From positions 124,001 to 188,000 of the forward strand of contig JAFKAC010000027.1 in assembly GCA_025766275.1 (NCBI GenBank): 64,000 nt of DNA, read 5' to 3'. The notes beneath the pieces are model-generated. The model ran no database searches. It worked only from the letters and a program-made list of their open reading frames with translations, and had not been told where the DNA came from. The position numbers and the translations under genes are program-made. Each line of letters opens with the position of its first letter. The first letter of the stretch is position 1. Source of the DNA: Lactarius indigo (taxonomy: Eukaryota > Basidiomycota > Agaricomycetes > Russulales > Russulaceae). Shown here one piece after another: positions 27,337 through 60,138 of the stretch.

Positions 27337-27371
27337 TCACCCCCTTCGTAGCGTGAGACCCCCGGACTCAC

Positions 27372-28009
27372 TTACTGGAAATCCCGCGCGATCCACTCAC
27401 GCTGCTCTTCTTCAATGCGTCGAAACACATCCGCCCGCTCTAAGCGGTACACGCAGTCCATCTTGTCTTCCCGCGCGACGAGCACCATTCCGCGAAGCTG
27501 GCGGATACGCGCCTGTAGGCGCGATTCTTCGTGGGCGGCGGCGCGATACCGCGTCACCTCCGCAACCAGGGACTCATCCCCTATGCGGTTGAGTGCGCGG
27601 TCCGTGAGTTTGTCGGCGGCGAGGATAACGAGATCCTCGTGAGCAATGAAGGCGCGATTCGCAGCCGAGAGGCGGGGAGTGGCGTAAAGGGGTTTGCCGT
27701 AAAGGTAGGGGGATCCTGGGATGACTCCCAGGACAAAGGGATTCGCACCTCCGACTATCTGGACGTGGCTTGCCTGCAACTCTACTCCGTCCGGCCCGGT
27801 GATGGGGAAGTGAATGTGATGGGGCTGTCGATTCGCCCGGAACCCTTCAGGCGCGAGGACCTGCGCCGGGTCGTCGTCTCGCGTAATGGGGGTGTGTAAT
27901 GCGACGCCGGGCAGTCGCACACGTCCTCGAGACATGGGGGTTCCGTCGGTGTGCAGGAGCCACGGGGTGATTCCGGGATTAGCAGAGTCGCGGTTCGTTC
28001 GAAGGAGGG
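27372..28009 (-). CDS. pol: Pol of A1, C-terminal part cut off by element B
   Basis: Encodes the last ~210 residues of the family-A Pol, downstream of the chromodomain: GITPWLLHTDGTPMSRGR, FRANRQPHHIHFPITGPDG, NPFVLGVIPGSPYLYGKPLY, then a charged coiled-coil-like tail (RLQARIRQLRG, REDKMDCVYRLERADVFRRI). It continues in frame at 35821 once B and one GAGGG copy are removed. Domain function unknown. Homologous C-termini occur in families B and C. Confidence 0.85.
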
Positions 28010-28517
28010 TGTTATGGTACGGACTGGATGACTCATTATACACGACTCATGACCGGTTATGACTACGGTCCGGCATTAGCATTAGTCATGGACTCTTACA
28101 TCGTATCAGTCAGCATAGTAGGTTGCACGTGATTGTGACTCATGTATGACTCATTCCTAGGATAGCTGTACTAGGGTTCGAGCTAGTTACGCTACTGGTT
28201 ACCCATTGTTCTAGCGGCGCTTTAAAGCCCGCGCGTATCTGTATAAGTAGTCGACTCGAAAGACCAAGAGTCCCCATCTTGGTCTTCTTCAATCCACCAT
28301 TTGACTCGTCTCCTGCCTGCCTTAGTCTCTGACTAAGTGTACTTCCGCTCCTATCCATCGAGGGATAGCATTTCTACATCTTACGCTGCAGCGTGTGCCG
28401 GAGAGCCCCTGTTCAGCTTGCGTTGGGTTGACACGTGATCCCCATTCGCTTGACTTTCGCTAAGTCGATTACGCCGTCTTCGTGTCCAAGTCGGACTAAC
28501 GCCGGTGGAGCGTAACA
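28010..28517 (+). repeat. 5' LTR of element B
   Basis: 508 bp. TATA box TATAAG at 28242; the predicted transcript start is at 28276, where ATCTTGGTCTT (28276-28286) begins. A mirror-complement AAGACCAAGA (28260-28269) lies just upstream with a 7-nt gap. Confidence 0.93.
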
Positions 28518-28519
28518 TT

Positions 28520-28530
28520 AAGACCAAGAT
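28520..28530 (+). promoter_or_regulatory. primer-binding site of element B (self-priming type)
   Basis: AAGACCAAGAT, 2 nt after the LTR, is perfectly complementary over 11 nt to the predicted first 11 nt of the element's own RNA (28276-28286), as in Tf1 of fission yeast. I saw no resemblance to a tRNA 3' end. Confidence 0.75.
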
Positions 28531-28537
28531 CCTCATC

Positions 28538-30505
28538 GTGGCGTACTCGACCCGAGACCAGTGGACGTCCTTCCGTCCCTACCATATTGAACGACGAGGA
28601 GATCGCAACGTACCAACAAGATTCTTGGGAGCAGCTCAGTGGAGAGAACGAGGAGAAGACACCGGGTACTTTGTAGAGTTCAACGGTCCTAACCGTTTCC
28701 GACCCGTTGAGTTCAATTTTGAACATCTCTGTTGGGTCGAGGTTACTTGGAACCCCATAGATCATCGCTGGGACATCATACGACCAGCCGGAAGAAACTA
28801 CAACTGCGATATCGACGCGCGAGAACTCAACAGTCGCGCAGACTACGGTCCTATTGACGGACAAACACAAGAACATACCGACGAAGGAATTAGCGGGGAA
28901 GAAGCCTCTGACAGTCAACAATCACCAAGTCGAGGAACAACGCCAGCAGAAGAAGCAAGCCTAGGAGCCATTGGCGATCACATCATACAACGAACTGAGT
29001 CGTTAACTATCCACCAACCCGAACCAGAAGTAATCCACATCCACAGCCCAGCAGTCGCAATGGCGACAGCCACCGTTACCCAAGAAGAGGTATACCTCAC
29101 TACAGAAGCAAGGGACCAGATCGCCCTGGAAGAACAAAGACGCATTGCCGAAGAATCGCGAGCAAATCTCGCTCCCATCAACCCATATACTGGTCATCGA
29201 ATGACTGATGACGACGTAGCAATTCACCGAGCCATCGGACCCGACGTAGCCGACCCCCCCAGCGGAGGAGGTGGACCTCCTGGTGACCTGCCCAGAGGAG
29301 GCGGGGGTGGAGGACCCCCATCAAGAGGACCAGGGTTCGGAGGGTTCCCTGGGGGATTTCCAGGAGGACCACCAGGAGGAGGACCTCCGGGAGGAGGATT
29401 ACCAGGTGCAGGTCCTATCATTCCTCCAAGTAACAAGTTGGCTGGCGAAGCACCTACAGTATTCGACGGAGAACGCGCCAAAGTTGAGGCGTTTCTCACT
29501 CAATGGCATGTCTACTGGGGCATGAATGCTGATGAAGGCATCATGGCGACTCCGTATCGACGCGCCCTACTTTTCCTATCTTACATCAAAGGCGTCAACG
29601 TCAGCGAGTGGGTATTGGCGATGCTTACCTGGCTTAACGGCCAGATACAAGCCGGCATACCCCGAACTAGTGAAGGACTATGGAACGAAGTTACGCGCAG
29701 CTTCATGCAGCGCTTCCGCAACACGATGGAACAAGAACAAGCTCAATACGAGCTTAAAAAGGGAGTCAAGATGATTGGGGGCAATTTAGATGAGTATTGC
29801 ACACAGTTCGAACAGTTAATACGCCGCGCTCAGTACAGATTGGACGATCCACAAACGCTTGACCTATTCGCGAGCGGACTACCGAAAGACCTGTACGAAA
29901 AGGTCTACACCCTTGATAACCCTCGCAACTATCGTGAATGGAAAGAAGCGGCCACAACCCGCCAACAGCAGTACCTCCATCTCAAAGCAGTATTAAACAA
30001 AGGGGTACCACAAGGACAAGGACAAGGACGACCGCGTCAGCGACAGTGGCAGGGGCCACCTAGAAGTTCTTGGCAACCAAGAAACTTGCCCCGTGATCCG
30101 AACGCAATGGACACGTCCGCAGACAGAATTCGAGGGCGACTCGCAGGAGCAGAGGATATACTCGCTCCTCGTCCCCCATATCGACCCCGAGGAGGGTTCC
30201 TCCAGAGAGGAGGGGGACGCAACAACCAAAGGCCAGTCACATGTTATAACTGCGGGAAGGACGGACATATGGCCCGCGATTGTAGGCAACCACGGAGGGA
30301 ATATCAACCCCAAGCATCTACCAGTCGATATATCGACACCGACTATCATCAACAGGAACCCGAAGTCGCTACCAGGGCGGTCCAAGAAGTACCCCCTCAA
30401 CAGCGCGCCAGCGACTGGCTTAACGGAGTAGCCGGAGAATCAGACGACGTAAAGGACATTATCCTCCAACAGTTGTGGAAGAAGGAGGGTTTTCAGGACG
30501 CCTGA
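28538..30505 (+). CDS. gag: Gag polyprotein of element B (non-AUG start proposed)
   Basis: Capsid-nucleocapsid protein of about 656 residues from the proposed GTG at 28538 (frame is open further up, to a GTG at 28505). N-terminal domain DQWTSFRPYHIERRGD to NSRADYGPIDG is closely shared with family A. Then comes a linker; the first ATG of the whole transcript is in frame at 29060 (MATATVTQEE). A Pro/Gly-rich segment leads to the capsid region (TVFDGERAKVEAFLTQWHVY, ASGLPKDLYEKVYTLDNP). One CCHC zinc knuckle (CYNCGKDGHMARDC) is near the end. Gag packages the RNA. The stop at 30503 lies inside the frameshift hairpin. Confidence 0.88.
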   Translation: MAYSTRDQWTSFRPYHIERRGDRNVPTRFLGAAQWRERGEDTGYFVEFNGPNRFRPVEFNFEHLCWVEVTWNPIDHRWDIIRPAGRNYNCDIDARELNSRADYGPIDGQTQEHTDEGISGEEASDSQQSPSRGTTPAEEASLGAIGDHIIQRTESLTIHQPEPEVIHIHSPAVAMATATVTQEEVYLTTEARDQIALEEQRRIAEESRANLAPINPYTGHRMTDDDVAIHRAIGPDVADPPSGGGGPPGDLPRGGGGGGPPSRGPGFGGFPGGFPGGPPGGGPPGGGLPGAGPIIPPSNKLAGEAPTVFDGERAKVEAFLTQWHVYWGMNADEGIMATPYRRALLFLSYIKGVNVSEWVLAMLTWLNGQIQAGIPRTSEGLWNEVTRSFMQRFRNTMEQEQAQYELKKGVKMIGGNLDEYCTQFEQLIRRAQYRLDDPQTLDLFASGLPKDLYEKVYTLDNPRNYREWKEAATTRQQQYLHLKAVLNKGVPQGQGQGRPRQRQWQGPPRSSWQPRNLPRDPNAMDTSADRIRGRLAGAEDILAPRPPYRPRGGFLQRGGGRNNQRPVTCYNCGKDGHMARDCRQPRREYQPQASTSRYIDTDYHQQEPEVATRAVQEVPPQQRASDWLNGVAGESDDVKDIILQQLWKKEGFQDA

Positions 30506-35275: not shown

Positions 35276-35307
35276 TGAGGTGGGCCTCACTCCTGAAAAG
35301 GGGGTGA

Positions 35308-35815
35308 TGTTACGGTACGGACTGGATGACTCATTATACACGACTCATGACCGGTTATGACTACGGTCCGGCATTAGCATTAGTCATGGACTCTTACATC
35401 GTATCAGTCAGCATAGTAGGTTGCACGTGATTGTGACTCATGTATGACTCATTCCTAGGATAGCTGTACTAGGGTTCGAGCTAGTTACGCTACTGGTTAC
35501 CCATTGTTCTAGCGGCGCTTTAAAGCCCGCGCGTATCTGTATAAGTAGTCGACTCGAAAGACCAAGAGTCCCCATCTTGGTCTTCTTCAATCCACCATTT
35601 GACTCGTCTCCTGCCTGCCTTAGTCTCTGACTAAGTGTACTTCCGCTCCTATCCATCGAGGGATAGCATTTCTACATCTTACGCTGCAGCGTGTGCCGGA
35701 GAGCCCCTGTTCAGCTTGCGTTGGGTTGACACGTGATCCCCATTCGCTTGACTTTCGCTAAGTCGATTACGCCGTCTTCGTGTCCAAGTCGGACTAACGC
35801 CGGTGGAGCGTAACA
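35308..35815 (+). repeat. 3' LTR of element B
   Basis: 508 bp, one visible difference from the 5' LTR. Preceded by the purine tract GAAAAGGGGGTGA. Confidence 0.93.
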
Positions 35816-35820
35816 GAGGG

Positions 35821-38800: not shown

Positions 38801-39928
38801 CGAGTTCGTAAGACCGAAGAACATGACCGTTGGTTCGAAGAGGCCAAATTTGGTTTTGAAAGCCGCCTTCTCTTGATCTCCGTCTCGTATGCGGACGTTG
38901 TTATACCCCCAGCGAATATCAAGCTTAGTGTAGATGTGGGCATTGCTGAGGTCGTAAATGAGGTCCTGAATCAAGGGGAGCGGGTACTGGTTGCGTATGG
39001 TATGTGAGTTGATAACCCGGTAATCCTGCACCGGGCGTAGTTTTCCGTCTTTCTTTTTAACAAAAAAGAATGATGACGCGTACGGGGAGATAGAAGGTCG
39101 CAGGTATCCCTGCTGGAGCTTTTCGTCTAGGAACTCCTTGAGCTTTCCCTCCTCTTCTTGCGTTAGTGGGTATATCTTGCAGTCGATTGCGGAGGGGGTA
39201 CCCGGCTTGAAATCAATGGCGTGGTCCCAGGGTCTAGCTGGGGGGAATCGTTGGGATGCTTCCTCGCTGAAGAGCCTTTCAAAGGCTTTGTATACTGCCG
39301 GCAGCTCGACTGGGTCTTCCTCTACCTTTGCACGGATTGCTAGCTCCGTCGACGTAGTTGCTCGCAAGTACGTGTCTTCTTCATCCATATCAAGGATGAT
39401 TGCTTCCTTTTCTTCGTTAGTGAGCGCGGTTGCAATGACAGTGTGACGACTCGGACTGTCCTGCGTACTAATCACGACCGGCATGATTTCCTCGTGTATT
39501 ACGGCGTCTCGCCAATTGATGGTTGGTTCGTAGGTTGCCAGCCAGGGGTATCCTAGAACGACATCCTCACCACCAAGGTCGGTTATGAGGAAGCGCATGG
39601 TTCTGTGATATCCCTTAGCGTATACGTCTAGATCGGTAAAGTGGGTAATAGACCCAGCTTTGTTTTCTGTGTTGTCTATATTCCATATTTTACGAGGTTG
39701 CGGTAGAAGTTGAAGTCCTATACCCATCCTTTTGATGAAGTTTGGGTGTATAAAGTTGTCGGTCGCTCCCGAGTCAACTAATGCTTTGATGTCGGCCATT
39801 CGGTAATTCGTGCGAATCGAGACTGGAATTCGAAGGGAGCGAAAGCGCGTCATGATTACAGAATTACAATTTAAAGCCCTCACCCAGGCCGATGGGTTCA
39901 GGCGCTCCGAAAACCCTCTTTCCCCCAT
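35821..39928 (-). CDS. pol: Pol of A1, main part
   Basis: From MGERGFSERLNPSAW, reached by -1 shift from Gag. Contains protease (LVDSGATDNF), RT with YMDD, RNase H, integrase with zinc finger and D-D-35-E residues, and chromodomain, all open. Reading on past the B insertion joins the C-terminal part at 28009. Residue differences from A2 are few and scattered. The open frame that runs through 35711 is an artefact of reading into B's LTR. Confidence 0.92.
39876..39916 (-). promoter_or_regulatory. -1 ribosomal frameshift signal, A1
   Basis: Minus-strand heptamer GGGTTTT at 39916-39910, 6-nt spacer, hairpin 39903-39876, same as in A2. Confidence 0.8.
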
Positions 39929-41886
39929 AAGTCCTGCAATATCAGATCTTTCACTTCGTCAGGGGCGTTGGCCACTCCTGTGAGCCACTCCTTGGCCCGC
40001 TCCTCGGCCGTTTTGTTGGTCGACGCTGCTTGTATTTGGGCGGGCGGTATTTCTTGTGAATAGTAGTCGGTTTCTGTCATTCGGACAGTAGACGGTCCGG
40101 GCTCCTGTTGTCGCCATTGTCGCGGCTGTCGCGGATGGGGGCAATTTCGTGAGAGGTGGCCTGGTGCGTTACAATTATAGCACAGGACTGTCCTTAGGTC
40201 TCTTCGCTGTCCTCCCCTTCCGCGTCCTCTGACTCCTGGGCCTCCTCTTGGTGGGAATGGAGGCTGATTGGTGTAGGGCGGTTTTCCGTAATCGATTTCT
40301 TCTGATCCGGCCAATCTTGCCCTTGTTCGATCGGCAGACGTGTCCATCGCCCAAGGATTGGCGAGGTTTTGTGGGATGCTCCAATTGGCGTTGGCCGTTT
40401 TCTTCGGCTTGTTGTCCTTATACTCATCCACCCTGGCTCTGATGTGGATGTAATTGCGTTGTCGGCGAAGCGTTGCTCGCTTCCATTCGTCGAAGGTCTC
40501 CGGCTCGTCTAGGTCGTAGGTCTTCTCGTATAGTTTCTTGGGTAACCCCTTTGTAAAGAGGTCGATTGTCTGTGGGTCGTTGAGACGATAGCCTGCTTTT
40601 CTGGCCGCTTCTTCGAATTCGTTGACGTATTTGTCGATGTCCCCATCGACCATTTTGAGGCCTTTCCTCAGCAGGGCTTGAGCCTGTTCTCGCTCAAGTG
40701 TGTTGACGAACCTTTGGTTGAACCCTTCTGCTACTGCATTCCACAATTCCCGCGTATGTTGATCTATGCCCCGTTGTATTTGTCGGTTGAGCCACTTGAG
40801 ATATGAGAGCACCCATTCGCTGACGGACACCCCCTTGATATAGGAGAGGAAGAGCAGGCATCGTCGGTAGTCGTTGCGCATGACAGAGGTGTCGAGGTTC
40901 ATCCCCCAATACACGTGCCATTGCGTGAGGAAGGAATCTACTTTAGTGCGGTCTCCGTCAAAAATGGTGGGAGGTTCACCAGTTAGTTTCTCATGCCCGT
41001 GTCCTCCTCCTCCTGCGCCTCCACCGCCGCCTCCACCCGCTCCTGGGGGTCCCCCTTCCGGCGGATTGTTCGGGAGGTCAGGCGGATTTCCTCCTGCTCC
41101 TGGTCGTCGGGGGAAATCGCCCCCGGGTGGTCCTCCCCATCCCGGTGGGGGGTCTAGTGGCATTCCTCGTCTCCCTCCATCCCCCGATGGGGGGTCTCCT
41201 TGGTCAGGTCCGATGGCGCGAAAGATTGCCGCGTCGTCTGCGGTCATTCGATGTCCTGTTTCGGGGTTGATAGGCATGAGGTGCCGCTGGGACTCCTGCC
41301 TAATTGCTTCGGCTGCTTCTCGTGCTGCTTGCTCCCTGACGGTCATGATTTCTTCTGCCGTCATAGTTGTTGTTGCCATTTCTGCTGCGGGTGATCGTAC
41401 GTGGATCACTTCTGGCGGCTCTGAGATATGTAGAGACTCAGCTTGCTGGATGGTATACTGCTCGATGGGTCCGACGCTTGCCGGATGGTTCTCTTCACTC
41501 TGCTCTTCTTCTTCGGTTTCTTCGCTCACTGCTTCCCCAGTTGAGTGTTCTCGTATTTGGCCGTCGATGGGCCCCCAGTCGGCTCGTGAGTTGAGTTCGC
41601 GTGCGTCGATATCGCACTGATATTGTCTTCCTGCTGGTCTGACAACGTCCCAGCGGTGATCTATGGGGTTCCACGTAATTTCTACCCAACACAGGTGGTC
41701 GAAATTGAACTCAACAGGTCTGAACCGTGTAGGCCCGTTGAATTCCACGAAATATCCGGTTTCGTCCCCTCGTTCTCTCCAACGAGCTGCTCCTAAGAAC
41801 CTGGTTGGTACGTTGCGATCTCCTCTTCGTTCTAAATGATAGGGACGGAAGTTCGTCCACTGATCGCGCGTATTGACAGTCGCCAC
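39898..41886 (-). CDS. gag: Gag polyprotein of A1 (non-AUG start proposed)
   Basis: 662 codons from GTG at 41886, nearly identical to the A2 Gag. Same conserved N-terminal domain, acidic linker, first ATG in frame at the MATTTMTAEE position, Gly/Pro-rich stretch, capsid and one CCHC knuckle (CYNCNAPGHLSRNC). No interruption. Confidence 0.9.
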   Translation of the reverse strand: MATVNTRDQWTNFRPYHLERRGDRNVPTRFLGAARWRERGDETGYFVEFNGPTRFRPVEFNFDHLCWVEITWNPIDHRWDVVRPAGRQYQCDIDARELNSRADWGPIDGQIREHSTGEAVSEETEEEEQSEENHPASVGPIEQYTIQQAESLHISEPPEVIHVRSPAAEMATTTMTAEEIMTVREQAAREAAEAIRQESQRHLMPINPETGHRMTADDAAIFRAIGPDQGDPPSGDGGRRGMPLDPPPGWGGPPGGDFPRRPGAGGNPPDLPNNPPEGGPPGAGGGGGGGAGGGGHGHEKLTGEPPTIFDGDRTKVDSFLTQWHVYWGMNLDTSVMRNDYRRCLLFLSYIKGVSVSEWVLSYLKWLNRQIQRGIDQHTRELWNAVAEGFNQRFVNTLEREQAQALLRKGLKMVDGDIDKYVNEFEEAARKAGYRLNDPQTIDLFTKGLPKKLYEKTYDLDEPETFDEWKRATLRRQRNYIHIRARVDEYKDNKPKKTANANWSIPQNLANPWAMDTSADRTRARLAGSEEIDYGKPPYTNQPPFPPRGGPGVRGRGRGGQRRDLRTVLCYNCNAPGHLSRNCPHPRQPRQWRQQEPGPSTVRMTETDYYSQEIPPAQIQAASTNKTAEERAKEWLTGVANAPDEVKDLILQDLWGKEGFRSA

Positions 41887-41905
41887 AATGGGATCTTGGT
41901 CTTAA

Positions 41906-42364
41906 TGTAACGCCGTCACAGCGTTAGCTCGACTTGAGCTCGAATAAAGGTGGCGATTACTCAGCTAATCACGCGCAAGGCGTATGGCACGAAGGCAACC
42001 CCTTAGATGTACGCAGACACTAGGGTAGAAACGTAAAGGCGCGTCGAAAGATGGTAAGAGACAAGACAGTTCGAAAGGAGACCAAAACAAGTGACGATTG
42101 AAGAAGACCAAGATGGAGTGTCTTGGTCTTCCGCAGCTGGCTTAAATACAAGAAGAGCAGGCTTTGAAGCGCTGCTATGAGTCACAGTAATGTAGCGTCC
42201 AACGTATCGCGTAAATACCGCGATCCTAATACTACTACTACCTGTACTAGGATCGAGTCATCCGTAAACTCCTAACTCCTTCGTAAACCCCGAGTCCGTG
42301 ACTAATCTACCTTACCGCCGTAGCCACAACCGGTACAGTAAGGGTCCGAGATAGAAACGTAACA
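41906..42364 (-). repeat. 5' LTR of A1
   Basis: 459 bp. Ends 2 nt before the primer-binding site (AAGACCAAGAT on the minus strand, 41903-41893). Identical by eye to 26878-27336. Confidence 0.92.
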
Positions 42365-42904
42365 TGCAGGCACTCCGTTTGCTCCGTGTTGTAATTGTCA
42401 GTAGTGCCAAATAAAGTGATAGAATGGCCGTAATGAAGGAGGCTATGGAGTTTGGGGATGTTGAAATTCTCGCATACGCCAACATCAACAAAAATATCTT
42501 TATTTTGATAGAAAGTTGCGAGGGAGTCCTCGAGGCGTTGGAGTGTCTGTGCTGTATGGGATGGAAACTGCGCGAGATAAATGAAGTTGAGGAGTGCGCG
42601 GGTGGCTCTAACCACACGCGACGGCACCTGCCCACCTGGAAGAGAAACGTCAACAATGAGGCCGATCAGAATTCGGCACATCGCTTTGTGCTCTTTCCCT
42701 GAAATGCGCGAGAGACCGGTAATGCCCTTTGGGAAGAGCATGATGTGATGATTTGGTGGTAAGCATCGGCACCGTGTGTCGATCTCCCTTGCACTGAATA
42801 TAACTGAACTGGTGAGCCACAATACGAGGTGCTTCAAGACACCCTGGAGCAACTGGTGAAGCACATCCGGAGTGATCGAAATGTAGATGTTTGCGAGTGG
42901 GAGG
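42365..42904 (-). pseudogene. Plavaka-type transposase, piece 3 of 4
   Basis: Minus strand. Encodes the well-conserved C-terminal catalytic half: LLHQLLQGVLKHLVLW, REIDTRCRCLPPNHHI, GISGKEHKAMCRILIGLIVD, FIYLAQFPSHTAQTLQRL, NKDIFVDVGVCENFNIPKLH and FGTTDNYNTEQTECLH, the last cut by A1. Cut at the other end by a solo LTR. Confidence 0.85.
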
Positions 42905-49003: not shown

Positions 49004-49583
49004 TGTTATGATCCGACGCTTCGGACCTAAGTCACAGTATGTCTCCACCCTGCCTTTCCCCTTCTGTACTATGCCTTGTTACCAAAGGAGCTACTGTCAC
49101 TAGCGGCGCTGTTTCTTTGATCCGAACTTCTGTTTACTCCGTTTAGTCTCTTTGATATTGTGTGGACTTGTGTTCATGTTGTTTGGAACCCTGTCCTATA
49201 TAAACCTGTACCATAGACCGTAGGAAGCCAGACTTGGCTTCGTTTGCAATCTAGCAACCTTGCCTCCGTACTTTGGTGTGACCTCGCCTTATCCCTCTCT
49301 TCTTGTGCATCCCCTACCTCAGTCCCTAACCAGGACACTTCAAAGTCTTTGCAGTTGAACTATATCAACGCGTCACACCTGTTATACTCTGTGCACTAGC
49401 AAGATCAAGTGTAGAGAAGTGTTAGACACTTCGGACAAGGAGTCCTACATTTCAGAGTAGTGCTGCACCTTGTGCCACACTTTTTGTCACTCGTATTTCA
49501 TAGCAGTAAGACAACAGAGGTCTTCGCTTGATACTTGTGTGATTCAGAACCTTTAGAACCCACGCCCCTGCTAGGGTGTAACA
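49004..49583 (+). repeat. 5' LTR of element D
   Basis: About 580 bp, TGTTATGATCC...GGTGTAACA; limits inferred from TGTTA/TAACA ends and the PBS, since the partner is not visible. TATA box TATATAAA at 49197; predicted start at 49230, where AGACTTGGCTT begins. A short inverted repeat GAAGCC/GGCTTC (49224-49229, 49236-49241) flanks the start. Confidence 0.78.
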
Positions 49584-49584
49584 T

Positions 49585-49595
49585 AAGCCAAGTCT
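49585..49595 (+). promoter_or_regulatory. primer-binding site of element D (self-priming type)
   Basis: AAGCCAAGTCT, 1 nt after the LTR, perfectly complementary to AGACTTGGCTT at 49230-49240. Differs from the A/B site at three of 11 positions, and the LTR partner has changed to match. Confidence 0.75.
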
Positions 49596-49791
49596 ACAAC
49601 TCCCAACACACCCAAGACACTACTGCCACACAGCAGAGTGGGCGACGATCCAAGAGGACGCATCAGCCAACAACCAGACACTCCACAGAACCCAGAAACG
49701 ACGGCATAGCCGGGCGACGGATCCTCCTTGACACAAGAGGCCGCTTCAGCCATCCCCTTACACAAATCAGCACCCAAGACAGACCACAATC

Positions 49792-51483
49792 GTGGCTAGC
49801 ATCAGTGTCACCTTTGAATCAGACAATGATTGGACCCCAGTCACAACCAGAACACAAGACAACCTCCCACACCACATTAAAAGCAGTCAACTAGGAAAAG
49901 GAGCTCGCTGGGCCACAACATCAGGCAGACCACCTTGTTACAAGTGCCTCATCAAAGGCAAACTCAGACCAGTGGAATTCATCAACAACAACTGGTACAT
50001 CCTCCGATACTTTCAGAATACATACCACACCAGAGCCATAAACATCACACCACACAGATTTGCTGAAGGATTAGGCTGGTGGAACGAAGAAGACGAACAG
50101 AACCCAGAAACGCCCACACAACAATCATCCTCAGCACCAAGAAACACTAGGGGAACATACGGACTACAACAAGATTCATCAGAAGAAGAACCCAGCTCAG
50201 ACGAAGCAGAATCACACTCAGAACTATCCCACTCCTCAGAACACCGCCTAGACATCACAGTACCCACACAAGCTTTGTCACAAGCCAGCCCCACTATCCC
50301 TATCTGGATAGAACCATCCCCAGCAGAAGAAGGATTCCCAGCCCCACTACCACCAATCAGATTGCCCTCCCCAGTCGAACCACCCCAGATCCCCATCACA
50401 CCACAGCCAACACTCATCATGTCAGCCATAAATGCCACGGGCACTGGCACAGGTACCGGCTCAAGCACCGGAACAGGAGGAACACCAACGACGAGCTCAG
50501 GAGGACTCAAAGGAGCACCCCCTACTCCGTTCACCGGAGATAGAACAGAGAGTGGTCAGTTCAAAAGAGAACTACTACGATACATCAAGTTAAATAGCGA
50601 GAATGAACTCATCAAAGAACCTTATGCACGGGTACTATTCGCCCTTACAATGTTCAAAGGACCCAGTGTACAGCTGTGGGTCAACCAAACCGAAGATGAC
50701 ATGGAAGCGGCACTAGCAGACCCCACCAAAGCCCTCACCAAAAACAGCAAAGATCTTTGGGACGGTTTTCTCGACACCTTCGACAGAGACTGGACCGACA
50801 CTCTAAACAAGGAAAGAGCCTATCAGAAGCTCATCAGTTTGACAATGCAGGGTGGAGCATTGGACAGTTACATCCTCGACTTCGAACACCTTGCAGGAAT
50901 AGCAGGATGGGCAAGAGATGCCCCTGGAACGGTGGAATTCTTCAAAAGAGGACTACCCACAGGACTGTATCGTGCTTGCCTTATGTGAACCACTATCCCA
51001 AACACCATGGACGAGTGGCAAACCGCTGCCAGAGCAGAACACCAACGCTGGAAGCTACTAAAAGCCAGACCAGGGAATAGAAACCCAGGGCCAACCCAGA
51101 ATGTCCACCAAGGATGACCAAAGCGAGACCCAAATGCGATGGATGTAGATGCCACCACCTCCACCCCCTTTAAGAAGCTTACTGAAGAAGAAAAGAAAGC
51201 CCTCATGAAAGAAGGACACTGCTTCAAATGCAGACAGCAAGGACACATGGCTAGGAACTGTCAACGACAAAACACCACCAACCAAACCAAAGCCAGAGCC
51301 ACAGACACCCAAGAAGCGGACACTGCACCCCCATACACCCCAGAAGCAAGCACCTCATCAGTGGCTGCTACCACAACCGAAGATAAAGTCTGACAAGCCC
51401 ATGCACTCGTCCAAGGCATGACTGAAGATGAAAAGAGACACTACTATGCCTTAGATCAGGATTTTTGCGATGCCGACCTGTGA
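49792..51483 (+). pseudogene. gag: Gag of element D with premature TGA codons
   Basis: Frame from GTG 49792 (upstream stop at 49729). The N-terminal domain (NDWTPVTTRTQDNLPHH, GKGARW, LRPVEF) is a distant match to the A/B Gag N-terminus. An acidic Ser/Pro linker follows, an in-frame ATG at 50419 (MSAINATG), then capsid (TPFTGDRTESGQFKRELLRY, FFKRGLPTGLYRACLM) and a CCHC knuckle (CFKCRQQGHMARNC). TGA codons at 50986, 51115 and 51391 interrupt it; each fits a former CGA codon with C-to-T at CpG. The TGA at 51481, inside the frameshift hairpin, is probably the true Gag stop. Confidence 0.82.
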
Positions 51484-52462: not shown

Positions 52463-52921
52463 TGTTACGTTTCTATCTCGGACCCTTACTGTACCGGTTG
52501 TGGCTACGGCGGTAAGGTAGATTAGTCACGGACTCGGGGTTTACGAAGGAGTTAGGAGTTTACGGATGACTCGATCCTAGTACAGGTAGTAGTAGTATTA
52601 GGGTCGCGGTATTTACGCGATACGTTGGACGCTACATTACTGTGACTCATAGCAGCGCTTCAAAGCCTGCTCTTCTTGTATTTAAGCCAGCTGCGGAAGA
52701 CCAAGACACTCCATCTTGGTCTTCTTCAATCGTCACTTGTTTTGGTCTCCTTTCGAACTGTCTTGCCTCTCACCATCTTTCGACACGCCTTTACGTTTCT
52801 ACCCTAGTGTCTGCGTACATCTAAGGGGTTGCCTTCGTGCCATACGCCTTGCGCGTGATTAGCTGAGTAATCGCCACCCTTATTCGAGCTCAAGTCGAGC
52901 TAACGCTGTGACGGCGTTACA
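52463..52921 (+). repeat. 5' LTR of A2
   Basis: 459 bp, TGTTACG...GCGTTACA. Carries the core promoter and start-site palindrome described at 52679-52724. No ATG lies between the predicted transcript start and the LTR end. Confidence 0.95.
52679..52724 (+). promoter_or_regulatory. LTR core promoter and U3/R palindrome (A2)
   Basis: TATTTAA begins at 52679. GAAGACCAAGA (52696-52706) and TCTTGGTCTTC (52714-52724) form a perfect 11-bp inverted repeat with a 7-nt gap. The 11 nt complementary to the PBS start at 52713, 34 nt after the TATA start, where transcription is expected to begin. Confidence 0.75.
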
Positions 52922-52923
52922 TT

Positions 52924-52934
52924 AAGACCAAGAT
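52924..52934 (+). promoter_or_regulatory. primer-binding site of A2 (self-priming type)
   Basis: AAGACCAAGAT, 2 nt after the LTR, complementary over 11 nt to 52713-52723. The TAA at 52923-52925, partly within it, closes the Gag frame upstream. Confidence 0.78.
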
Positions 52935-52940
52935 CCCATT

Positions 52941-54929
52941 GTGGCGACTGTCAATACGCGCGATCAGTGGACGAACTTCCGTCCCTATCATTTAGAACGA
53001 AGAGGAGATCGCAACGTACCAACCAGGTTCTTAGGAGCAGCTCGTTGGAGAGAACGAGGAGACGAAACCGGATATTTCGTGGAATTCAACGGGCCTACAC
53101 GGTTCAGACCTGTTGAGTTCAATTTCGACCACCTGTGTTGGGTAGAAATTACGTGGAACCCCATAGATCACCGCTGGGACGTTGTCAGACCAGCAGGAAG
53201 ACAATATCAGTGCGATATCGACGCACGCGAACTCAACTCACGAGCCGACTGGGGGCCCATCGACGGCCAAATACGAGAACACTCAACTGGGGAAGCAGTG
53301 AGCGAAGAAACCGAAGAAGAAGAACAGAGTGAAGAGAACCATCCGGCAAGCGTCGGACCCATCGAGCAGTATACCATCCAGCAAGCTGAGTCTCTACATA
53401 TCTCAGAGCCGCCAGAAGCGATCCACGTACGATCACCTGCAGCAGAAATGGCAACAACAACTATGACGGCAGAAGAAATCATGACCGTCAGGGAGCAAGC
53501 AGCACGAGAAGCAGCCGAAGCAATTAGGCAGGAGTCCCAGCGGCACCTCATGCCTATCAACCCCGAAACAGGACATCGAATGACCGCAGACGACGCGGCA
53601 ATCTTTCGCGCCATCGGACCTGACCAAGGAGACCCCCCATCGGGGGATGGAGGGAGACGAGGAATGCCACTAGACCCCCCACCGGGATGGGGAGGACCAC
53701 CCGGGGGCGATTTTCCCCGACGACCAGGAGCAGGAGGAAATCCGCCTGACCTCCCGAACAATCCGCCGGAAGGGGGACCCCCAGGAGCGGGTGGAGGCGG
53801 CGGTGGAGGCGCAGGAGGAGGAGGACACGGGCATGAGAAACTAACTGGTGAACCTCCCACCATTTTTGACGGAGACCGCACTAAAGTAGACTCCTTCCTC
53901 ACGCAATGGCACGTGTATTGGGGAATGAACCTCGACACCTCTGTTATGCGCAACGACTACCGACGATGCCTACTCTTCCTCTCCTACATCAAGGGGGTGT
54001 CCGTCAGCGAATGGGTGCTCTCATATCTCAAGTGGCTCAATCGACAAATACAACGGGGCATAGAACAACATACGCGGGAGTTATGGAATGCAGTAGCAGA
54101 AGGGTTCAACCAAAGGTTCGTCAACACACTTGAGCGAGAACAGGCTCAAGCCCTGCTGAGGAAAGGCCTCAAAATGGTCGATGGGGACATCGACAAATAC
54201 GTCAATGAATTCGAAGAAGCGGCCAGAAAAGCAGGCTACCGTCTCAACGACCCGCAGACAATCGACCTCTTTACAAAGGGGTTACCCAAGAAACTATACG
54301 AGAAGACCTACGACCTAGACGAGCCGGAGACCTTCGACGAGTGGAAGCGGGCAACGCTTCGCCGACAACGCAATTATATCCACATCAGAGCCAGGGTGGA
54401 TGAGTATAAGGACAATAAGCCGAAGAAAGCGGCCAACGCCAATTGGAGCATCCCGCAAAATCTCGCTAACCCTTGGGCAATGGACACGTCTGCCGATCGA
54501 ACAAGGGCAAGATTGGCCGGATCAGAGGAGATTGATTACGGAAAACCGCCATACACCAATCAGCCTCCATTCCCACCAAGAGGGGGCCCAGGGGTTAGAG
54601 GACGCGGAAGGGGGGGACAGCGAAGAGACCTAAGGACAGTCCTGTGCTATAATTGTAACGCACCAGGCCACCTCTCACGAAATTGCCCCCATCCGCGACA
54701 GCCGCGACAATGGCGACAACAGGAGCCCGGACCATCTACGGTCCGAATGACGGAAACCGACTACTATTCGCAAGAAGTACCGCCCGCTCAAATACAAGCA
54801 GCGTCGACCAACAAAACGGCCGAGGAGCGGGCCAAGGAGTGGCTCACGGGAGTGGCCAACGCCCCTGATGAAGTGAAAGATCTGATATTGCAGGACTTAT
54901 GGGGGAAAGAGGGTTTTCGGAGCGCCTGA
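52941..54929 (+). CDS. gag: Gag polyprotein of A2 (non-AUG start proposed)
   Basis: 662 codons from GTG 52941. Translation must begin between the in-frame TAA (52923) and the conserved domain, where codons ATT, GTG and ACG are the only near-cognates. Order: conserved N-terminal domain (DQWTNFRPYHLERRGD, RFRPVEFNFDHLCWVEI, CDIDARELNSRADW), acidic linker, first ATG of the transcript in frame at 53448 (MATTTMTAEE), Pro/Gly-rich stretch, capsid (TIFDGDRTKVDSFLTQWHVY, TKGLPKKLYEKTYDLDEPET) and CCHC knuckle CYNCNAPGHLSRNC at about residue 569. Forms the virus-like particle. Stop TGA lies in the frameshift hairpin. Confidence 0.92.
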   Translation: MATVNTRDQWTNFRPYHLERRGDRNVPTRFLGAARWRERGDETGYFVEFNGPTRFRPVEFNFDHLCWVEITWNPIDHRWDVVRPAGRQYQCDIDARELNSRADWGPIDGQIREHSTGEAVSEETEEEEQSEENHPASVGPIEQYTIQQAESLHISEPPEAIHVRSPAAEMATTTMTAEEIMTVREQAAREAAEAIRQESQRHLMPINPETGHRMTADDAAIFRAIGPDQGDPPSGDGGRRGMPLDPPPGWGGPPGGDFPRRPGAGGNPPDLPNNPPEGGPPGAGGGGGGGAGGGGHGHEKLTGEPPTIFDGDRTKVDSFLTQWHVYWGMNLDTSVMRNDYRRCLLFLSYIKGVSVSEWVLSYLKWLNRQIQRGIEQHTRELWNAVAEGFNQRFVNTLEREQAQALLRKGLKMVDGDIDKYVNEFEEAARKAGYRLNDPQTIDLFTKGLPKKLYEKTYDLDEPETFDEWKRATLRRQRNYIHIRARVDEYKDNKPKKAANANWSIPQNLANPWAMDTSADRTRARLAGSEEIDYGKPPYTNQPPFPPRGGPGVRGRGRGGQRRDLRTVLCYNCNAPGHLSRNCPHPRQPRQWRQQEPGPSTVRMTETDYYSQEVPPAQIQAASTNKTAEERAKEWLTGVANAPDEVKDLILQDLWGKEGFRSA

Positions 54930-57900
54930 ACCCATCGGCCTGGGTGAGGGCTTTAAATTGTAATTCTGTAATCATGACGCGCTTTCGCTCCCTTCGAATT
55001 CCAGTCTCGATTCGCACGAATTACCGAATGGCCGACATCAAAGCATTAGTTGACTCGGGAGCAACCGACAACTTTATACACCCAAACTTCATCAAAAGGA
55101 TGGGTATAGGACTTCAACTTCTACCGCAACCTCGTAAAATATGGAATATAGACAACACCGAAAACAAAGCTGGGTCTATCACCCACTTTACCGATCTAGA
55201 CGTATACGCTAAGGGATATCACAGAACCATGCGCTTCCTCATAACCGACCTTGGTGGTGAGGATGTCGTTCTAGGATACCCCTGGCTGGCAACCTACGAA
55301 CCAACCATCAATTGGCGAGACGCCGTAATACACGAGGAAATCATGCCGGTCGTGATTAGTACGCAGGACAGTCCGAGTCGTCACACTGTCATTGCAACCG
55401 CGCTCACTAACGAAGAAAAGGAAGCAATCATCCTTGATATGGATGAAGAAGACACGTACTTGCGAGCAACTACGTCGACGGAGCTAGCAATCCGTGCAAA
55501 GGTAGAGGAAGACCCAGTCGAGCTGCCGGCAGTATACAAAGCCTTTGAAAGGCTCTTCAGCGAGGAAGCATCCCAACGATTTCCCCCAGCTAGACCTTGG
55601 GACCACGCCATTGATTTCAAGCCGGGTACCCCCTCCGCAATCGACTGCAAGATATACCCACTGACGCAAGAAGAGGAGGGAAAGCTCAAGGAGTTCCTAG
55701 ACGAGAAGCTCCAGCAGGGATACCTGCGACCTTCTATCTCCCCGTACGCGTCATCATTCTTTTTTGTTAAAAAGAAAGACGGAAAACTACGCCCGGTGCA
55801 GGATTACCGGGTTATCAACTCACATACCATACGCAACCAGTACCCGCTTCCCTTGATTCAGGACCTCATTTACGACCTCAGCAATGCTCACATCTACACC
55901 AAGCTTGATATTCGCTGGGGGTATAACAACGTCCGCATACGAGACGGAGATCAAGAGAAGGCGGCTTTCAAAACCAAATTTGGCCTCTTCGAACCAACGG
56001 TCATGTTCTTCGGTCTTACGAACTCGCCGGCCACCTTTCAAACCATGATGAACCATATCTACCGTGACACCATTGCAAAACACGAAACTCGGGGGACAGT
56101 CATTCGAGTCTACATGGACGATATTGGCATCGCCACACGAGAAGGCTCCACATTAGCTGACCACATCGCCGCCGTAACTGACGTCCTCCGCGTCGCCCAG
56201 GACCATGACCTTTACTTCAAACTTGAGAAGTGCCTCTTCCACCAACCGCGGATGGATTACCTGGGGGTAATCCTTGAGAGGGGGGTAACACGCATGGACC
56301 CGGTAAAAGTTCGCGGAATCAAGGACTGGCCAACTCCGACTAAAGTAAGGGACGTACGATCTTTCTTGGGTTTCTGTAACTTTTACCGACTTTTCATCCG
56401 CGGTTTCGCTACCCATGCACGACCCTTAAACCGACTCACGCGGAAAGACGCAGAATGGAAGTGGACAGAAGACGAGGACCGCGCATTCAAAACCCTCAAG
56501 CGCCTTGTCACCGAAGAACCGGTGTTGGCCCACCCCAATCTGCATGATCAATTCGAATTAGAGGTCGACGCGTCGGGATTCGCGGTAGGTGCTGTACTCC
56601 TGCAAAAGAAAAGTGATAGTCGCAAGCACCCGATAGGATATTACTCGGCTACGCTAAATGAAGCCGAGCGTAATTACGACATCTACGACCTGGAACTCCT
56701 CGCCATCGTCAAGGCTCTCAGACACTGGAGACCCCTACTGGCAGGATCACCGCACAAAATCAAAATATTCTCGGACCACCTCAACCTACAATATTGGAAG
56801 ACCCCGCAGAAGATCAGCCGACGAGTTGCCCGAGAAGTGCTTGAACTGATGGAGTACGATTTTGAGATCCATCACATCAAGGGGAAGAACAACGGCAGGG
56901 CAGACGCCTTATCCAGGCGACCGGATTACGACCAGGGAGAAGGAGACAACGAAGGTGTGGTAGTCCTACCCCCCGAAGTATTCGTAAGAGCCGCTAATAC
57001 CGCCCGCATCTTGGAAATACACCCGCTGCTGCAAACGCCGAGACGACGACAAGACCCAAAGATCGTTCAGGCGTGGGTCGACGCACACCAACTAAAGAAG
57101 ATAGACGGAGAATGGTATAAGGACGGACGACTGGTGGTCACCGGACCCATGTCTGCATACAGGGCGATAATAGGCGACCACCATGACCCCCCTATCCATG
57201 GACATCCAGGTATTAGTAGGACCCAACGGATAGTAGAACGACACTATTGGTGGCCGAAGCTTCGCCGAGACGTGTATGAATACGTTACAGGGTGCGCCGA
57301 CTGCCAACGAAATAAAGTCAACACAAGACCAACGCACGCGCCGTTACACCCCATTACTGCAATAACGGACGCTCCCCCCTTTCACACCATCGCGTTGGAC
57401 TTTATTACTAAACTACCCACGTCCCAATCCTATGACAGCATTCTCACAGTAACAGACCACGATTGCAGCAAGGCGTCGATATTCATTCCGTGCAATGAGG
57501 AGATTACGGCGGAGGAAACAGCCACCCTGTACGTCCTTCACGTGTTCAAACGGTTCGGGTTACCGCGTAAAATCATCAGTGATCGCGACCCCCGATTCAC
57601 ATCAAAGTTCACCAAAGAGGTTTGTCGGATCTTGGGCATCAAACAAAACGTGTCCACGGCGTATCACCCAAGAACGGACGGACAATCGGAGCGAACCAAT
57701 CAGTGGCTGGAACAGTATCTGCGGTTCTGGGCCAATGAGCGCCAAGATAACTGGGCGGCATATCTTCCCGTAGCAGAATTCGCTCATAACAATTGGCCCC
57801 ATGAGCATACAAAGCAATCTCCCTTTATGCTGCTTATGGGCTACAATCCGACAGCGGATTGGACGGATAAGCCATCCCCTATTCCACACGTTATCTCCAG

Positions 57901-59644
57901 ACTCACACAGCTCAAGGAGGCGCGACAGCTGGCCCAGACCCTTATCAAAAAGGCCCAGGATAGCTGGGTGAAACACCGAGATACCCCGAAATATCAAATA
58001 GGTGATCAAGTGTGGCTAGAAGGGAGACATCTTCGAACCAACCAACCCACGGCCAAACTTGCGGCGCGACGCCACGGCCCCTTTAAGATAGTCCAGGTGA
58101 TGTCCCCGTACAATTACCGCCTTGAACTTCCCACGCAGTGGAGCATCCACCCGGTGTTTCACATAGATCTTCTCACGCCGTACAAAAGCACGGCCATGCA
58201 TGGAGAAAATTTCCCTCGACCACCACCGGATCTTGTGGACGGGGAAGAAGAATACGAGGTCGAGGCCATTCTAGACTCGCGCCATTTCGGCCGCCGCAAG
58301 AAGCTGCAGTATCTCATCAAATGGAAGGGGTACCCTGACTCGGAAAATCAGTGGGTCGATAAGGATGATGTTTTTGCCCCGGAAGCAATAGAGGCGTATC
58401 AAGCGGCCCGAACAGCTGCACGAGGACTTAAAAGCGAGACGGTGGACGGTCAGGGAGAGTATCACTCCCATCTTCGATTCACTTCTACGTCTATGCCCAC
58501 CTCTCCTCTCAGACATGTCACCACGGCGATCCTCCTCGACCAAGTCGCGCAAGACGCCGCCGCCATCATCCAAGACGACGAAGAAACCGTGGTTCCAGCG
58601 GTCCAGCTCACTCCGTACACACCTGCAGACATGCGAACGGGGCATATCACCGCTCAAGAATGGGCTGGCATCCTACAGAGGTTCCCAGACCCCACGCGCC
58701 AGCCCAGCGACGAGCAGCATGCCGTCGCTCACATCTTCCGAGACGACAGCGGGGCTCGCGAACCCATCGCCGTCATCCCCCCAGACGACGCTCTTATCGG
58801 TATTAGGGGAGTTTTCCCGGCCGATCGATCTAACGAAGGACCGGGAGGAGACGGAGGCAGAGGAGGTCTGGCGGAGGACGGCTCAGGAATGGGCCAGAGA
58901 ACAGTTGAGGTTGGCGCAGGAGAAATTGAGCGAGTTGCGGCAGCGCAGGCAGCGATGCCGGACCAAGCTGACCATGACGACGGAGATTACTACCCGGTCA
59001 GCCACCCCCTCCTTCGAACGAACCGCGACTCTGCTAATCCCGGAATCACCCCGTGGCTCCTGCACACCGACGGAACCCCCATGTCTCGAGGACGTGTGCG
59101 ACTGCCCGGCGTCGCATTACACACCCCCATTACGCGAGACGACGACCCGGCGCAGGTCCTCGCGCCTGAAGGGTTCCGGGCGAATCGACAGCCCCATCAC
59201 ATTCACTTCCCCATCACCGGGCCGGACGGAGTAGAGTTGCAGGCGAGCCACGTCCAGATAGTCGGAGGTGCGAATCCCTTTGTTCTGGGAGTCATCCCAG
59301 GATCCCCCTACCTCTACGGCAAACCTCTTTACGCCGCTCCCCGCCTCTCGGCTGCGAATCGCGCCTTCATTGCTCACGAGGATCTCGTTATCCTCGCCGC
59401 CGACAAACTCACGGACCGCGCACTCAACCGCATAGGGGATGAGTCCCTGGTTGCGGAGGTGACGCGGTATCGCGCCGCCGCCCATGAAGAGTCGCGCCTA
59501 CAGGCGCGTATCCGCCAGCTTCGCGGAATGGTGCTTGTCGCGCGGGAAGACAAGATGGACTGCGTGTACCGCCTAGAGCGGGCGGATGTGTTTCGACGTA
59601 TTGAAGAGGAGCAACGTGAGTGGATCGCGCGGGATTTCCAGTAA
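54899..59644 (+). CDS. pol: Pol polyprotein of A2
   Basis: 1581 codons in the -1 frame from Gag, overlapping it by 31 nt. Approximate residues: protease DSGA 52-55; RT 230-420 with YMDD 405-408; RNase H from D557; integrase H2C2 finger to C799/C802, catalytic D834, D895, E931 (D-35-E); GPY-like module near 1060; chromodomain 1118-1160 (EEYEVEAILDSRHFGRRK, LIKWKGYPDSENQWV); acidic spacer; and a C-terminal domain of ~210 residues (SPYLYGKPLYAAPRLSAANR) of unknown role. Copies RNA to DNA and integrates it; chromodomains of this class steer integration to heterochromatin, which fits the nested insertions. The ATG at 54899 precedes the slip site, so it is unlikely to be a start. Confidence 0.95.
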   Translation: MGERGFSERLNPSAWVRALNCNSVIMTRFRSLRIPVSIRTNYRMADIKALVDSGATDNFIHPNFIKRMGIGLQLLPQPRKIWNIDNTENKAGSITHFTDLDVYAKGYHRTMRFLITDLGGEDVVLGYPWLATYEPTINWRDAVIHEEIMPVVISTQDSPSRHTVIATALTNEEKEAIILDMDEEDTYLRATTSTELAIRAKVEEDPVELPAVYKAFERLFSEEASQRFPPARPWDHAIDFKPGTPSAIDCKIYPLTQEEEGKLKEFLDEKLQQGYLRPSISPYASSFFFVKKKDGKLRPVQDYRVINSHTIRNQYPLPLIQDLIYDLSNAHIYTKLDIRWGYNNVRIRDGDQEKAAFKTKFGLFEPTVMFFGLTNSPATFQTMMNHIYRDTIAKHETRGTVIRVYMDDIGIATREGSTLADHIAAVTDVLRVAQDHDLYFKLEKCLFHQPRMDYLGVILERGVTRMDPVKVRGIKDWPTPTKVRDVRSFLGFCNFYRLFIRGFATHARPLNRLTRKDAEWKWTEDEDRAFKTLKRLVTEEPVLAHPNLHDQFELEVDASGFAVGAVLLQKKSDSRKHPIGYYSATLNEAERNYDIYDLELLAIVKALRHWRPLLAGSPHKIKIFSDHLNLQYWKTPQKISRRVAREVLELMEYDFEIHHIKGKNNGRADALSRRPDYDQGEGDNEGVVVLPPEVFVRAANTARILEIHPLLQTPRRRQDPKIVQAWVDAHQLKKIDGEWYKDGRLVVTGPMSAYRAIIGDHHDPPIHGHPGISRTQRIVERHYWWPKLRRDVYEYVTGCADCQRNKVNTRPTHAPLHPITAITDAPPFHTIALDFITKLPTSQSYDSILTVTDHDCSKASIFIPCNEEITAEETATLYVLHVFKRFGLPRKIISDRDPRFTSKFTKEVCRILGIKQNVSTAYHPRTDGQSERTNQWLEQYLRFWANERQDNWAAYLPVAEFAHNNWPHEHTKQSPFMLLMGYNPTADWTDKPSPIPHVISRLTQLKEARQLAQTLIKKAQDSWVKHRDTPKYQIGDQVWLEGRHLRTNQPTAKLAARRHGPFKIVQVMSPYNYRLELPTQWSIHPVFHIDLLTPYKSTAMHGENFPRPPPDLVDGEEEYEVEAILDSRHFGRRKKLQYLIKWKGYPDSENQWVDKDDVFAPEAIEAYQAARTAARGLKSETVDGQGEYHSHLRFTSTSMPTSPLRHVTTAILLDQVAQDAAAIIQDDEETVVPAVQLTPYTPADMRTGHITAQEWAGILQRFPDPTRQPSDEQHAVAHIFRDDSGAREPIAVIPPDDALIGIRGVFPADRSNEGPGGDGGRGGLAEDGSGMGQRTVEVGAGEIERVAAAQAAMPDQADHDDGDYYPVSHPLLRTNRDSANPGITPWLLHTDGTPMSRGRVRLPGVALHTPITRDDDPAQVLAPEGFRANRQPHHIHFPITGPDGVELQASHVQIVGGANPFVLGVIPGSPYLYGKPLYAAPRLSAANRAFIAHEDLVILAADKLTDRALNRIGDESLVAEVTRYRAAAHEESRLQARIRQLRGMVLVAREDKMDCVYRLERADVFRRIEEEQREWIARDFQ
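54911..54951 (+). promoter_or_regulatory. -1 ribosomal frameshift signal, A2
   Basis: G-GGT-TTT (54911-54917) in Gag frame, spacer 54918-54923, stem 54924-54951: GCCT/GGGC outer pairs, tandem G.A and A.G mismatches, ACCCA/TGGGT inner pairs, six-base loop TCGGCC. Gag stop TGA 54927-54929 is inside the stem. Confidence 0.82.
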
Positions 59645-59679
59645 GTGAGTCCGGGGGTCTCACGCTACGAAGGGGGTGA

Positions 59680-60138
59680 TGTTACGTTTCTATCTCGGAC
59701 CCTTACTGTACCGGTTGTGGCTACGGCGGTAAGGTAGATTAGTCACGGACTCGGGGTTTACGAAGGAGTTAGGAGTTTACGGATGACTCGATCCTAGTAC
59801 AGGTAGTAGTAGTATTAGGGTCGCGGTATTTACGCGATACGTTGGACGCTACATTACTGTGACTCATAGCAGCGCTTCAAAGCCTGCTCTTCTTGTATTT
59901 AAGCCAGCTGCGGAAGACCAAGACACTCCATCTTGGTCTTCTTCAATCGTCACTTGTTTTGGTCTCCTTTCGAACTGTCTTGCCTCTCACCATCTTTCGA
60001 CACGCCTTTACGTTTCTACCCTAGTGTCTGCGTACATCTAAGGGGTTGCCTTCGTGCCATACGCCTTGCGTGTGATTAGCTGAGTAATCGCCACCCTTAT
60101 TCGAGCTCAAGTCGAGCTAACGCTGTGACGGCGTTACA
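59680..60138 (+). repeat. 3' LTR of A2
   Basis: 459 bp; one visible difference from the 5' LTR. Followed at once by the second CGAGT. Confidence 0.95.

Follow-up and report, generated by a model that had tools for sequence, protein, structure and literature searches.

The 64,000-nucleotide (nt) window analyzed here (Lactarius indigo, contig JAFKAC010000027.1, positions 124,001 to 188,000) carries long terminal repeat (LTR) retrotransposons designated A (copies A1 and A2), B, and D, and a further family, E, was found with a protein query. In these four families translation of Gag very likely begins at a GUG codon, which would give a long Gag that carries an additional conserved domain at its N-terminus, and leaky scanning to the first in-frame AUG would likely yield a short Gag from the same RNA. 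We put the probability of this explanation as a whole at about 80%. According to the proposed mechanism, the capped RNA would begin approximately 34 nt downstream of a TATA box, and ribosomes would scan a leader cleared of AUG triplets. A fraction of them would initiate at GUG, whose flanking bases (A at -3, G at +4) are optimal, and the remaining ones would traverse another 500-630 nt, from which AUG is likewise mostly missing, up to the first AUG, where initiation would produce the conventional capsid-nucleocapsid short Gag. A GUG in the best context, with few AUGs in the leader before it or in the interval that separates it from a conserved in-frame AUG, constitutes a leaky-scanning layout (coordinates in Table 1).

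A panel of 122 copies (41 of A, 41 of B, 21 of D, and 19 of E) was analyzed, consisting of 120 fetched copies and the B and D copies of the window. Those fetched with A2 were the 40 long matches among 54 places listed, A1 and A2 of the window included; B copies came from 20 of 40 places listed and from 20 places obtained in a search with the Lactarius protein P0003, and D copies from 20 of 104 places listed, including the lowest-scoring ones. Family E was found with protein P0008, and one of the 20 places taken with this query was of type A. Copies were picked by similarity and constitute a non-random sample. The start position was read off a downstream protein anchor, which was matched in all 120 fetched copies, so GTG played no part in copy selection. 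The first conserved codon was GTG in 118 of the 122 copies and ATG in four, and every copy (122/122) had A at -3 and G at +4. Wherever A, B, and E copies had valine at the start position, its codon was GTG (97/97); of 23 other four-fold columns conserved as V, A, G, P, or T in at least 90%, not one kept a single codon. Position -2 was variable in A and E, and position -1 in all four families.

The pattern was also searched throughout the 90-Mb genome after the core of the primer-binding site (PBS), TTAAGACCAAGA, with positions -2 and -1 restricted to pyrimidines. For spacings of 8-11 nt there were 541 occurrences of RYYGTGGC and 25 of RYYATGGC, neither RYYGTHGC (GTA, GTC, or GTT) nor RYYYTGGC (CTG or TTG) was found, and GTGGC was preceded by a base other than A at -3 in two cases only. 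Spacings of 6-7 nt added 526 GTG, 22 ATG, one TTG, and no CTG, giving a genome-wide total of 1067 GTG, 47 ATG, one TTG, and no CTG. A synonymous valine codon replacing GTG was found neither in the panel nor in the patterns searched. Within family A, diversity downstream of GTG was 0.068, 0.020, and 0.258 at codon positions 1, 2, and 3, third positions varying most, and variation upstream of the start was high, partly owing to differences in spacing: the PBS core lies 6, 7, 8, or 9 nt from GTG, which spans all frames, while the downstream frame was kept and the distance from GTG to AUG was 169 codons in 41/41 copies. The codon is thus a conserved near-cognate of AUG in strong context and the first one under constraint, and its pattern in the aligned copies is that of a start codon, unlike that of an ordinary valine codon. 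The motif A..GTGG occurred only once between the predicted RNA start and the AUG in 35/41 A, 39/41 B, and 16/19 E copies.

The first-pass annotation had correctly read ATT-GTG-GCG in A2, ATC-GTG-GCG in B, and ATC-GTG-GCT in D, and had placed the start either at GUG or at the preceding AUU/AUC; the sequence tests fit the former and speak against the latter. A start at AUU or AUC is excluded by the copies with ACT (six of A), ACC (four of E, one of them with an ATG start), or AAC (one of E) at that place. More generally, initiation elsewhere, either at this codon or at a near-cognate further upstream, would be compatible with the window's B copy, in which no in-frame stop occurs upstream until inside the LTR, and with the AUU or AUC found before the start codon in 111/122 copies. 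Nevertheless, nine of the 11 copies with ACT, ACC, or AAC were stop-free over the 325-403 codons read, ACC or ACT occupied this position in 37 of 100 matches listed at spacings of 6-7 nt, the upstream spacing is unconserved, and codon periodicity appears in the diversity 3' of GTG, which makes a start elsewhere highly improbable. The in-frame TAA at 52923, which had been taken to confine the start, is present in A2, but other A copies differ in their upstream frame owing to the 6-9 nt spacing. Conservation of A..GTGGC as an RNA or DNA signal, for packaging or priming, was likewise considered. In A, B, and E the block lies close to the PBS, whose core ends 6-9 nt 5' of GTG. In D, however, the PBS lies about 195 nt away and the block is still the first codon of the conserved frame; moreover, the bases that do not vary are the ones that define the context of a start codon, and -2 and -1 show the variability described above. 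A role of this kind in place of initiation hardly seems credible.

Among the 47 genome-wide ATG variants, 46 were preceded by C, so CpG decay accounts for most of them, and eight of ten that were read further had stops within the first 169 codons. The idea that ATG variants represent a successful lineage was rejected, since CpG decay explains most of them. In a 70-tip tree, the 14 ATG tips required at least eight changes. These copies with ATG for GTG (L106, L107, L112, L120, and L129-L138) had ATG after C in 13 of 14 cases, and CpG decay is likely. L133 and L136 both carry ATG and are 96% alike, and may derive from an ATG element that was itself copied; L129 is frameshifted or badly decayed and aligned poorly.

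The long in-frame stretch upstream of the ATG noted in the first pass was confirmed, comprising 169 codons in A2 and 174 in B, and it reaches 209 codons in D. For seven pairs drawn from A, B, and E and compared both within and across families, the ratio of nonsynonymous to synonymous divergence (dN/dS) of the extension domain was 0.04-0.15, with dS up to 2.0. These values indicated that the extension frame is under purifying selection. Neither Pfam (E 0.1) nor a PDB sequence search (E 1) gave a match to the extension, and a homolog search with the D extension as query found nothing either. Ten relatives of the extension were found, nine of them Lactarius proteins and one without a name. A more distant Gag, metagenome protein P0011 (protein sequence only), starts with Val-Ala, its first Met being residue 163. 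The gene model of P0003, from Lactarius pseudohatsudake, begins with Met-Ala at exactly this position, and may correspond to an ATG variant like those of the panel. Two structure predictions for the domain gave a mean predicted local distance difference test score (pLDDT) of 42.6 and 52.0, too poor for a comparison with structure libraries, which was set aside.

The transcript start was predicted from the complement of the PBS and from TATA spacing. The complement between the predicted RNA end and the PBS measured exactly 11 nt in 119 of the 120 copies with a located leader (D copies L072 and L075 had none and were excluded from leader counts). The sequences differ between A/B/E and D, each pair matching within itself, as in Tf1/sushi-like self-priming from the predicted 5' end. 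The TATA offset was -34 in 39/41 A and 19/19 E copies and -33 in 16/19 D copies, and the TATA pattern used was matched by only 7/41 B copies. An inverted repeat, GAAGACCAAGA...TCTTGGTCTTC, spans the predicted RNA start at 52696-52724, which means that the end of U3 repeats the PBS sequence. An upstream AUG might also be joined to the transcript in frame by splicing, an eventuality that the first-pass annotation had named as fatal to its reading. Basidiomycete genes are rich in introns, and several Lactarius gene models carry long unrelated-looking stretches 5' of the extension domain. On the other hand, the leaders of A2 and B are free of ATG, so an AUG would have to be created at the junction, and enumeration in one representative per family gave six (A), 0 (B), 16 (D), and 0 (E) in-frame GT..AG junctions that make an AUG, only one of which, in D, has an acceptable donor (GTRNGY). 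Splicing would also give no reason why GTG and its flanking A (-3) and G (+4) are invariant, and we consider it most improbable.

Between the predicted RNA start and the first ATG, the absence of ATG in any frame over 735 nt in A2 (52713 to 53448) and 784 nt in B (28276 to 29060) was confirmed. The 11-12 triplets that had been given as expected by chance proved slightly too many (base composition gives 10.5 for A2 and 10.6 for B). In codon-preserving shuffles of the coding part, 5.1 (A2) and 4.1 (B) out-of-frame ATGs were expected and none was seen (P = 0.0006 and 0.0014); the corresponding tests on single representatives of D and E gave P = 0.0030 and 0.0004. The claim of an ATG-free leader and extension holds for A2 and B, but not for the D copy of the window, which has a private out-of-frame ATG at 49826, 34 nt 3' of its GTG (49792) and before the in-frame ATG at 50419. 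All 20 other D copies read AAC instead of AAT at this site; of these 20, three carry an out-of-frame ATG at another place in the extension and one carries an in-frame ATG.

Counting ATGs across family members against shuffled sequences, a check proposed along with the original claim, revealed depletion in the leaders and extensions of all four families. Leaders contained 5 ATGs versus 77.8 expected from dinucleotide shuffles in A, 5 versus 99.6 in B, 14 versus 97.4 in D (19 copies), and 3 versus 33.8 in E. Out-of-frame ATGs in the extension numbered 20 versus 215.4 expected from synonymous-codon shuffles in A, 10 versus 195.5 in B, 4 versus 72.0 in D, and 9 versus 69.2 in E (43 versus about 552 in the four families summed). 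No depletion was observed over an equal length 3' of the AUG (193/176.9 in A, 191/192.6 in B, 120/101.8 in D, and 56/60.3 in E). In family A, the density per kb was 8.2 ATGs in U3; the 100 nt preceding the predicted RNA start had 3.2 and 2.4, the part between that start and the AUG 0-2, and the sequence beyond the AUG 20-22. The series in B was 43.8, then 2.9 and 0.8, then 0-1 up to the AUG, with 2.0 in the first 100 nt after it and 12.8-24.0 beyond. Density remained at 2.7 for 100 nt after the AUG in D and was 26 immediately in E. The AUG-poor interval was thus found in the four families; it ended sharply at the AUG in A and E and roughly 100 nt beyond it in B and D.

At the other end of this interval, an in-frame ATG was present within the searched range in 122/122 panel copies, at codon 169 in 41/41 copies of A, and in 118 of 120 copies its -3 position held a purine. 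It could be an ordinary conserved methionine, with GUG the sole functional start and only the long Gag of importance. Such a reading would accommodate the out-of-frame ATGs that precede the AUG in some stop-free copies and the ATG-poor zone of B and D, which does not stop exactly at the AUG. Against it stand the purine at -3 and the depletion of out-of-frame ATGs 3' of GUG, approximately 8- to 20-fold in four families and absent after the AUG. If the short product were useless, out-of-frame AUGs would be harmless, and the fact that they are scarce in four families is what chiefly speaks for two products. A long Gag alone is consequently considered unlikely, and the production of two Gag forms by leaky scanning, as first suggested, gains indirect support from the ATG-poor interval.

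A different route to GUG would be a shunt or internal entry that leaves the leader unscanned, given that pairing of the 5' end with the PBS, just upstream of this codon, is possible in A, B, and E. In predicted folds (one copy per family), the first 10-11 nt are indeed paired with a 3' segment, located just before GTG in A, B, and E, and a shunt is joined to a non-AUG start in rice tungro bacilliform virus (RTBV) (PMC5902531). However, a shunt needs no ATG-poor leader, yet the first 100 nt of the leader contained no ATG in 41 A, 41 B, and 19 D copies and one in 19 E copies; in D, moreover, PBS and GUG are widely separated. Delivery by shunting is accordingly rated very unlikely.

Several observations weigh against a GUG start followed by leaky scanning. 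Regarding the ATG depletion, the copies are related, so the observed and expected counts are not independent; the RNA start is itself a prediction; the ATG-poor zone begins already within 100 nt upstream of it in A and B, and extends about 100 nt past the AUG in B and D. A second E copy had one ATG (P = 0.057), out-of-frame ATGs occurred in the extension of 11/35 A, 6/39 B, 4/19 D, and 6/18 E stop-free copies, and the leader contained an ATG in 4/41 A, 5/41 B, 8/19 D, and 3/19 E copies. Regarding the choice of start, 18/19 D copies had a second A..GTGG and the remaining one had three, and an ACG lies shortly 5' of GTG in some A copies. Near-cognates in strong context also exceeded the shuffles in leaders (43/8.3 in A, 42/23.0 in B, 86/40.6 in D, and 48/13.9 in E, up to 20 copies each), partly because one sits in the 5'-terminal self-priming motif (nt 3). 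Finally, the four panel copies with an ATG start were all stop-free in the first 165 codons, so an AUG at the start site is not plainly harmful. CpG to CpA changes at other conserved sites averaged 2.0% (B), 4.1% (E), and 8.2% (D), compared with G to A at the start codon in 2/41, 2/19, and 0/21 copies, respectively; with such similar frequencies, selection against AUG cannot be claimed.

Predicted folding energy around GUG gave z-scores from -2.3 to +0.7 in four representatives, and a stable RNA structure as an initiation aid was rejected, no signal being common to them. Tentatively, the lineage might have fixed GUG as an obligatory weak start whose weakness, rather than splicing or transcription, would set the ratio of long to short Gag. 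In A, B, and E the priming helix would end 6-9 nt before GUG, so that priming and translation of the long Gag could be mutually exclusive and serve as a switch of RNA fate. We regard this proposal as rather doubtful.

Comparable systems exist elsewhere. Glyco-Gag of murine leukemia virus (MLV) is an N-terminally extended Gag started at a near-cognate (CUG in accCUGg; also GUG) upstream of normal Gag, gammaretroviruses generally lack AUGs in the extension, and ribosome density there is 6.7% of that in gag (PMC5778647). The MLV extension differs in its length of 88 residues (PMC5120145), its signal peptide, and its poorly conserved GUG (PMC5778647), whereas the fungal extensions have 169-209 codons with a conserved domain and a nearly invariant GUG. 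RTBV open reading frames I-III also involve an AUU start used by about 10% of ribosomes, about 900 nt without internal AUGs, and leakage downstream (PMC5902531), but they are separate frames after a shunt, while in the fungal elements both starts share one frame and the leader is AUG-poor. By analogy with these values for MLV and RTBV, the long Gag would be the minor form. PEG10 has a CUG upstream of an in-frame AUG, two N-termini, and a -1 frameshift, but is a retrotransposon-derived mammalian host gene with a 34-residue extension (PMC2800197). Ty1 p22 is also a shorter in-frame Gag from the same element, although it arises from an internally initiated transcript and comprises the C-terminal half of Gag (PMC5408680); unlike p22, the proposed short Gag retains Retrotrans_gag and the zinc knuckle. 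In Tf1 of Schizosaccharomyces pombe the first 11 RNA bases are complementary to the PBS, and the accessible part of that source makes no mention of a non-AUG Gag start (PMC7175516). Near-cognate starts that give longer isoforms are known in Neurospora cpc-1 (PMC5487733) and, as ACG, AUU, and CUG, in Cryptococcus (PMC7049704), but in host genes. Mechanisms of this kind have precedents in a gammaretrovirus, a plant pararetrovirus, and PEG10, and a nearly fixed GUG start of Gag in fungal LTR retrotransposons was not found in a literature search of titles and abstract openings that included few subscription papers.

If this explanation is true, the gammaretroviral strategy of two Gags extends to fungal LTR retrotransposons, with a domain unrecognized by Pfam and PDB searches. 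Gene callers that demand AUG can garble such a Gag, as in the Lactarius models mentioned above. Furthermore, with more than 1000 matching sites, a single genome offers a natural mutagenesis panel for a GUG start in a eukaryote, so that start-codon context and leaky scanning can be tested directly in mushrooms.

Table 1. Features of the A, B, and D elements in the window.
Feature	Position	Strand	Remarks
A2 TATA-like box	52679..52684	+	34 nt 5' of predicted RNA start
A2 predicted RNA 5' end, ATCTTGGTCTT	52713..52723	+	11 nt perfect complement of PBS (Tf1-like self-priming)
A2 primer-binding site, TTAAGACCAAGAT	52922..52934	+	directly adjoins LTR
A2 proposed GUG start of long Gag	52941..52943	+	ATT GTG GCG, A at -3, G at +4
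A2 Gag N-terminal extension	52941..53447	+	169 codons, ATG-free in any frame; conserved domain of ~110 residues and acidic linker
A2 first AUG, proposed short-Gag start	53448..53450	+	in frame, G at -3, G at +4
A2 gag frame, GUG to stop	52941..54929	+	Retrotrans_gag and CCHC zinc knuckle, both 3' of AUG
A2 element	52463-60138	+	Ty3-type chromovirus
A2 5' LTR	52463..52921	+	459 bp
A2 3' LTR	59680-60138	+	target-site duplication of A2, CGAGT
A1	26878-42365	-	B element nested inside
A1 GUG	41884..41886	-	
B element	28010-35815		nested in A1; apparent target duplication GAGGG
B, predicted RNA start to first ATG	28276..29062	+	predicted RNA start 28276, GTG 28538, first ATG 29060
D, damaged copy	49230..50421	+	predicted RNA start 49230, GTG 49792, in-frame ATG 50419, private ATG 49826
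D predicted RNA start, AGACTTGGCTT	49230		complement of D PBS, AAGCCAAGTCT, near 49585

A2 is inserted inside the damaged D copy, and A1 is 99% identical to it in the stretch that holds the GUG. Its paired LTRs and target-site duplication are those of an LTR retrotransposon, and its pol follows the chromovirus order: protease (53-137), reverse transcriptase (297-466), RNase H (529-660), integrase (760-931), and chromodomain (1126-1175), together with a Tf2-1-like SH3 domain; protease and the integrase core scored under their Pfam cut-offs. A chromodomain was not found in the 976-amino-acid stretch of B scanned. Retrotrans_gag and the CCHC knuckle scored above the curated Pfam cut-offs in A2 and B; in the truncated D copy Retrotrans_gag fell below its cut-off and CCHC was absent. 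By these features the families are Ty3-type fungal LTR retrotransposons with predicted self-priming, A2 with a chromodomain. In A2 pol (54878-59641), about 400 residues C-terminal of the chromodomain had no Pfam match at E 0.001. The heptamer GGGTTTT occurs right before the gag stop at 54911-54917 in A2 and at 30487-30493 in B, phased for a -1 frameshift into pol.

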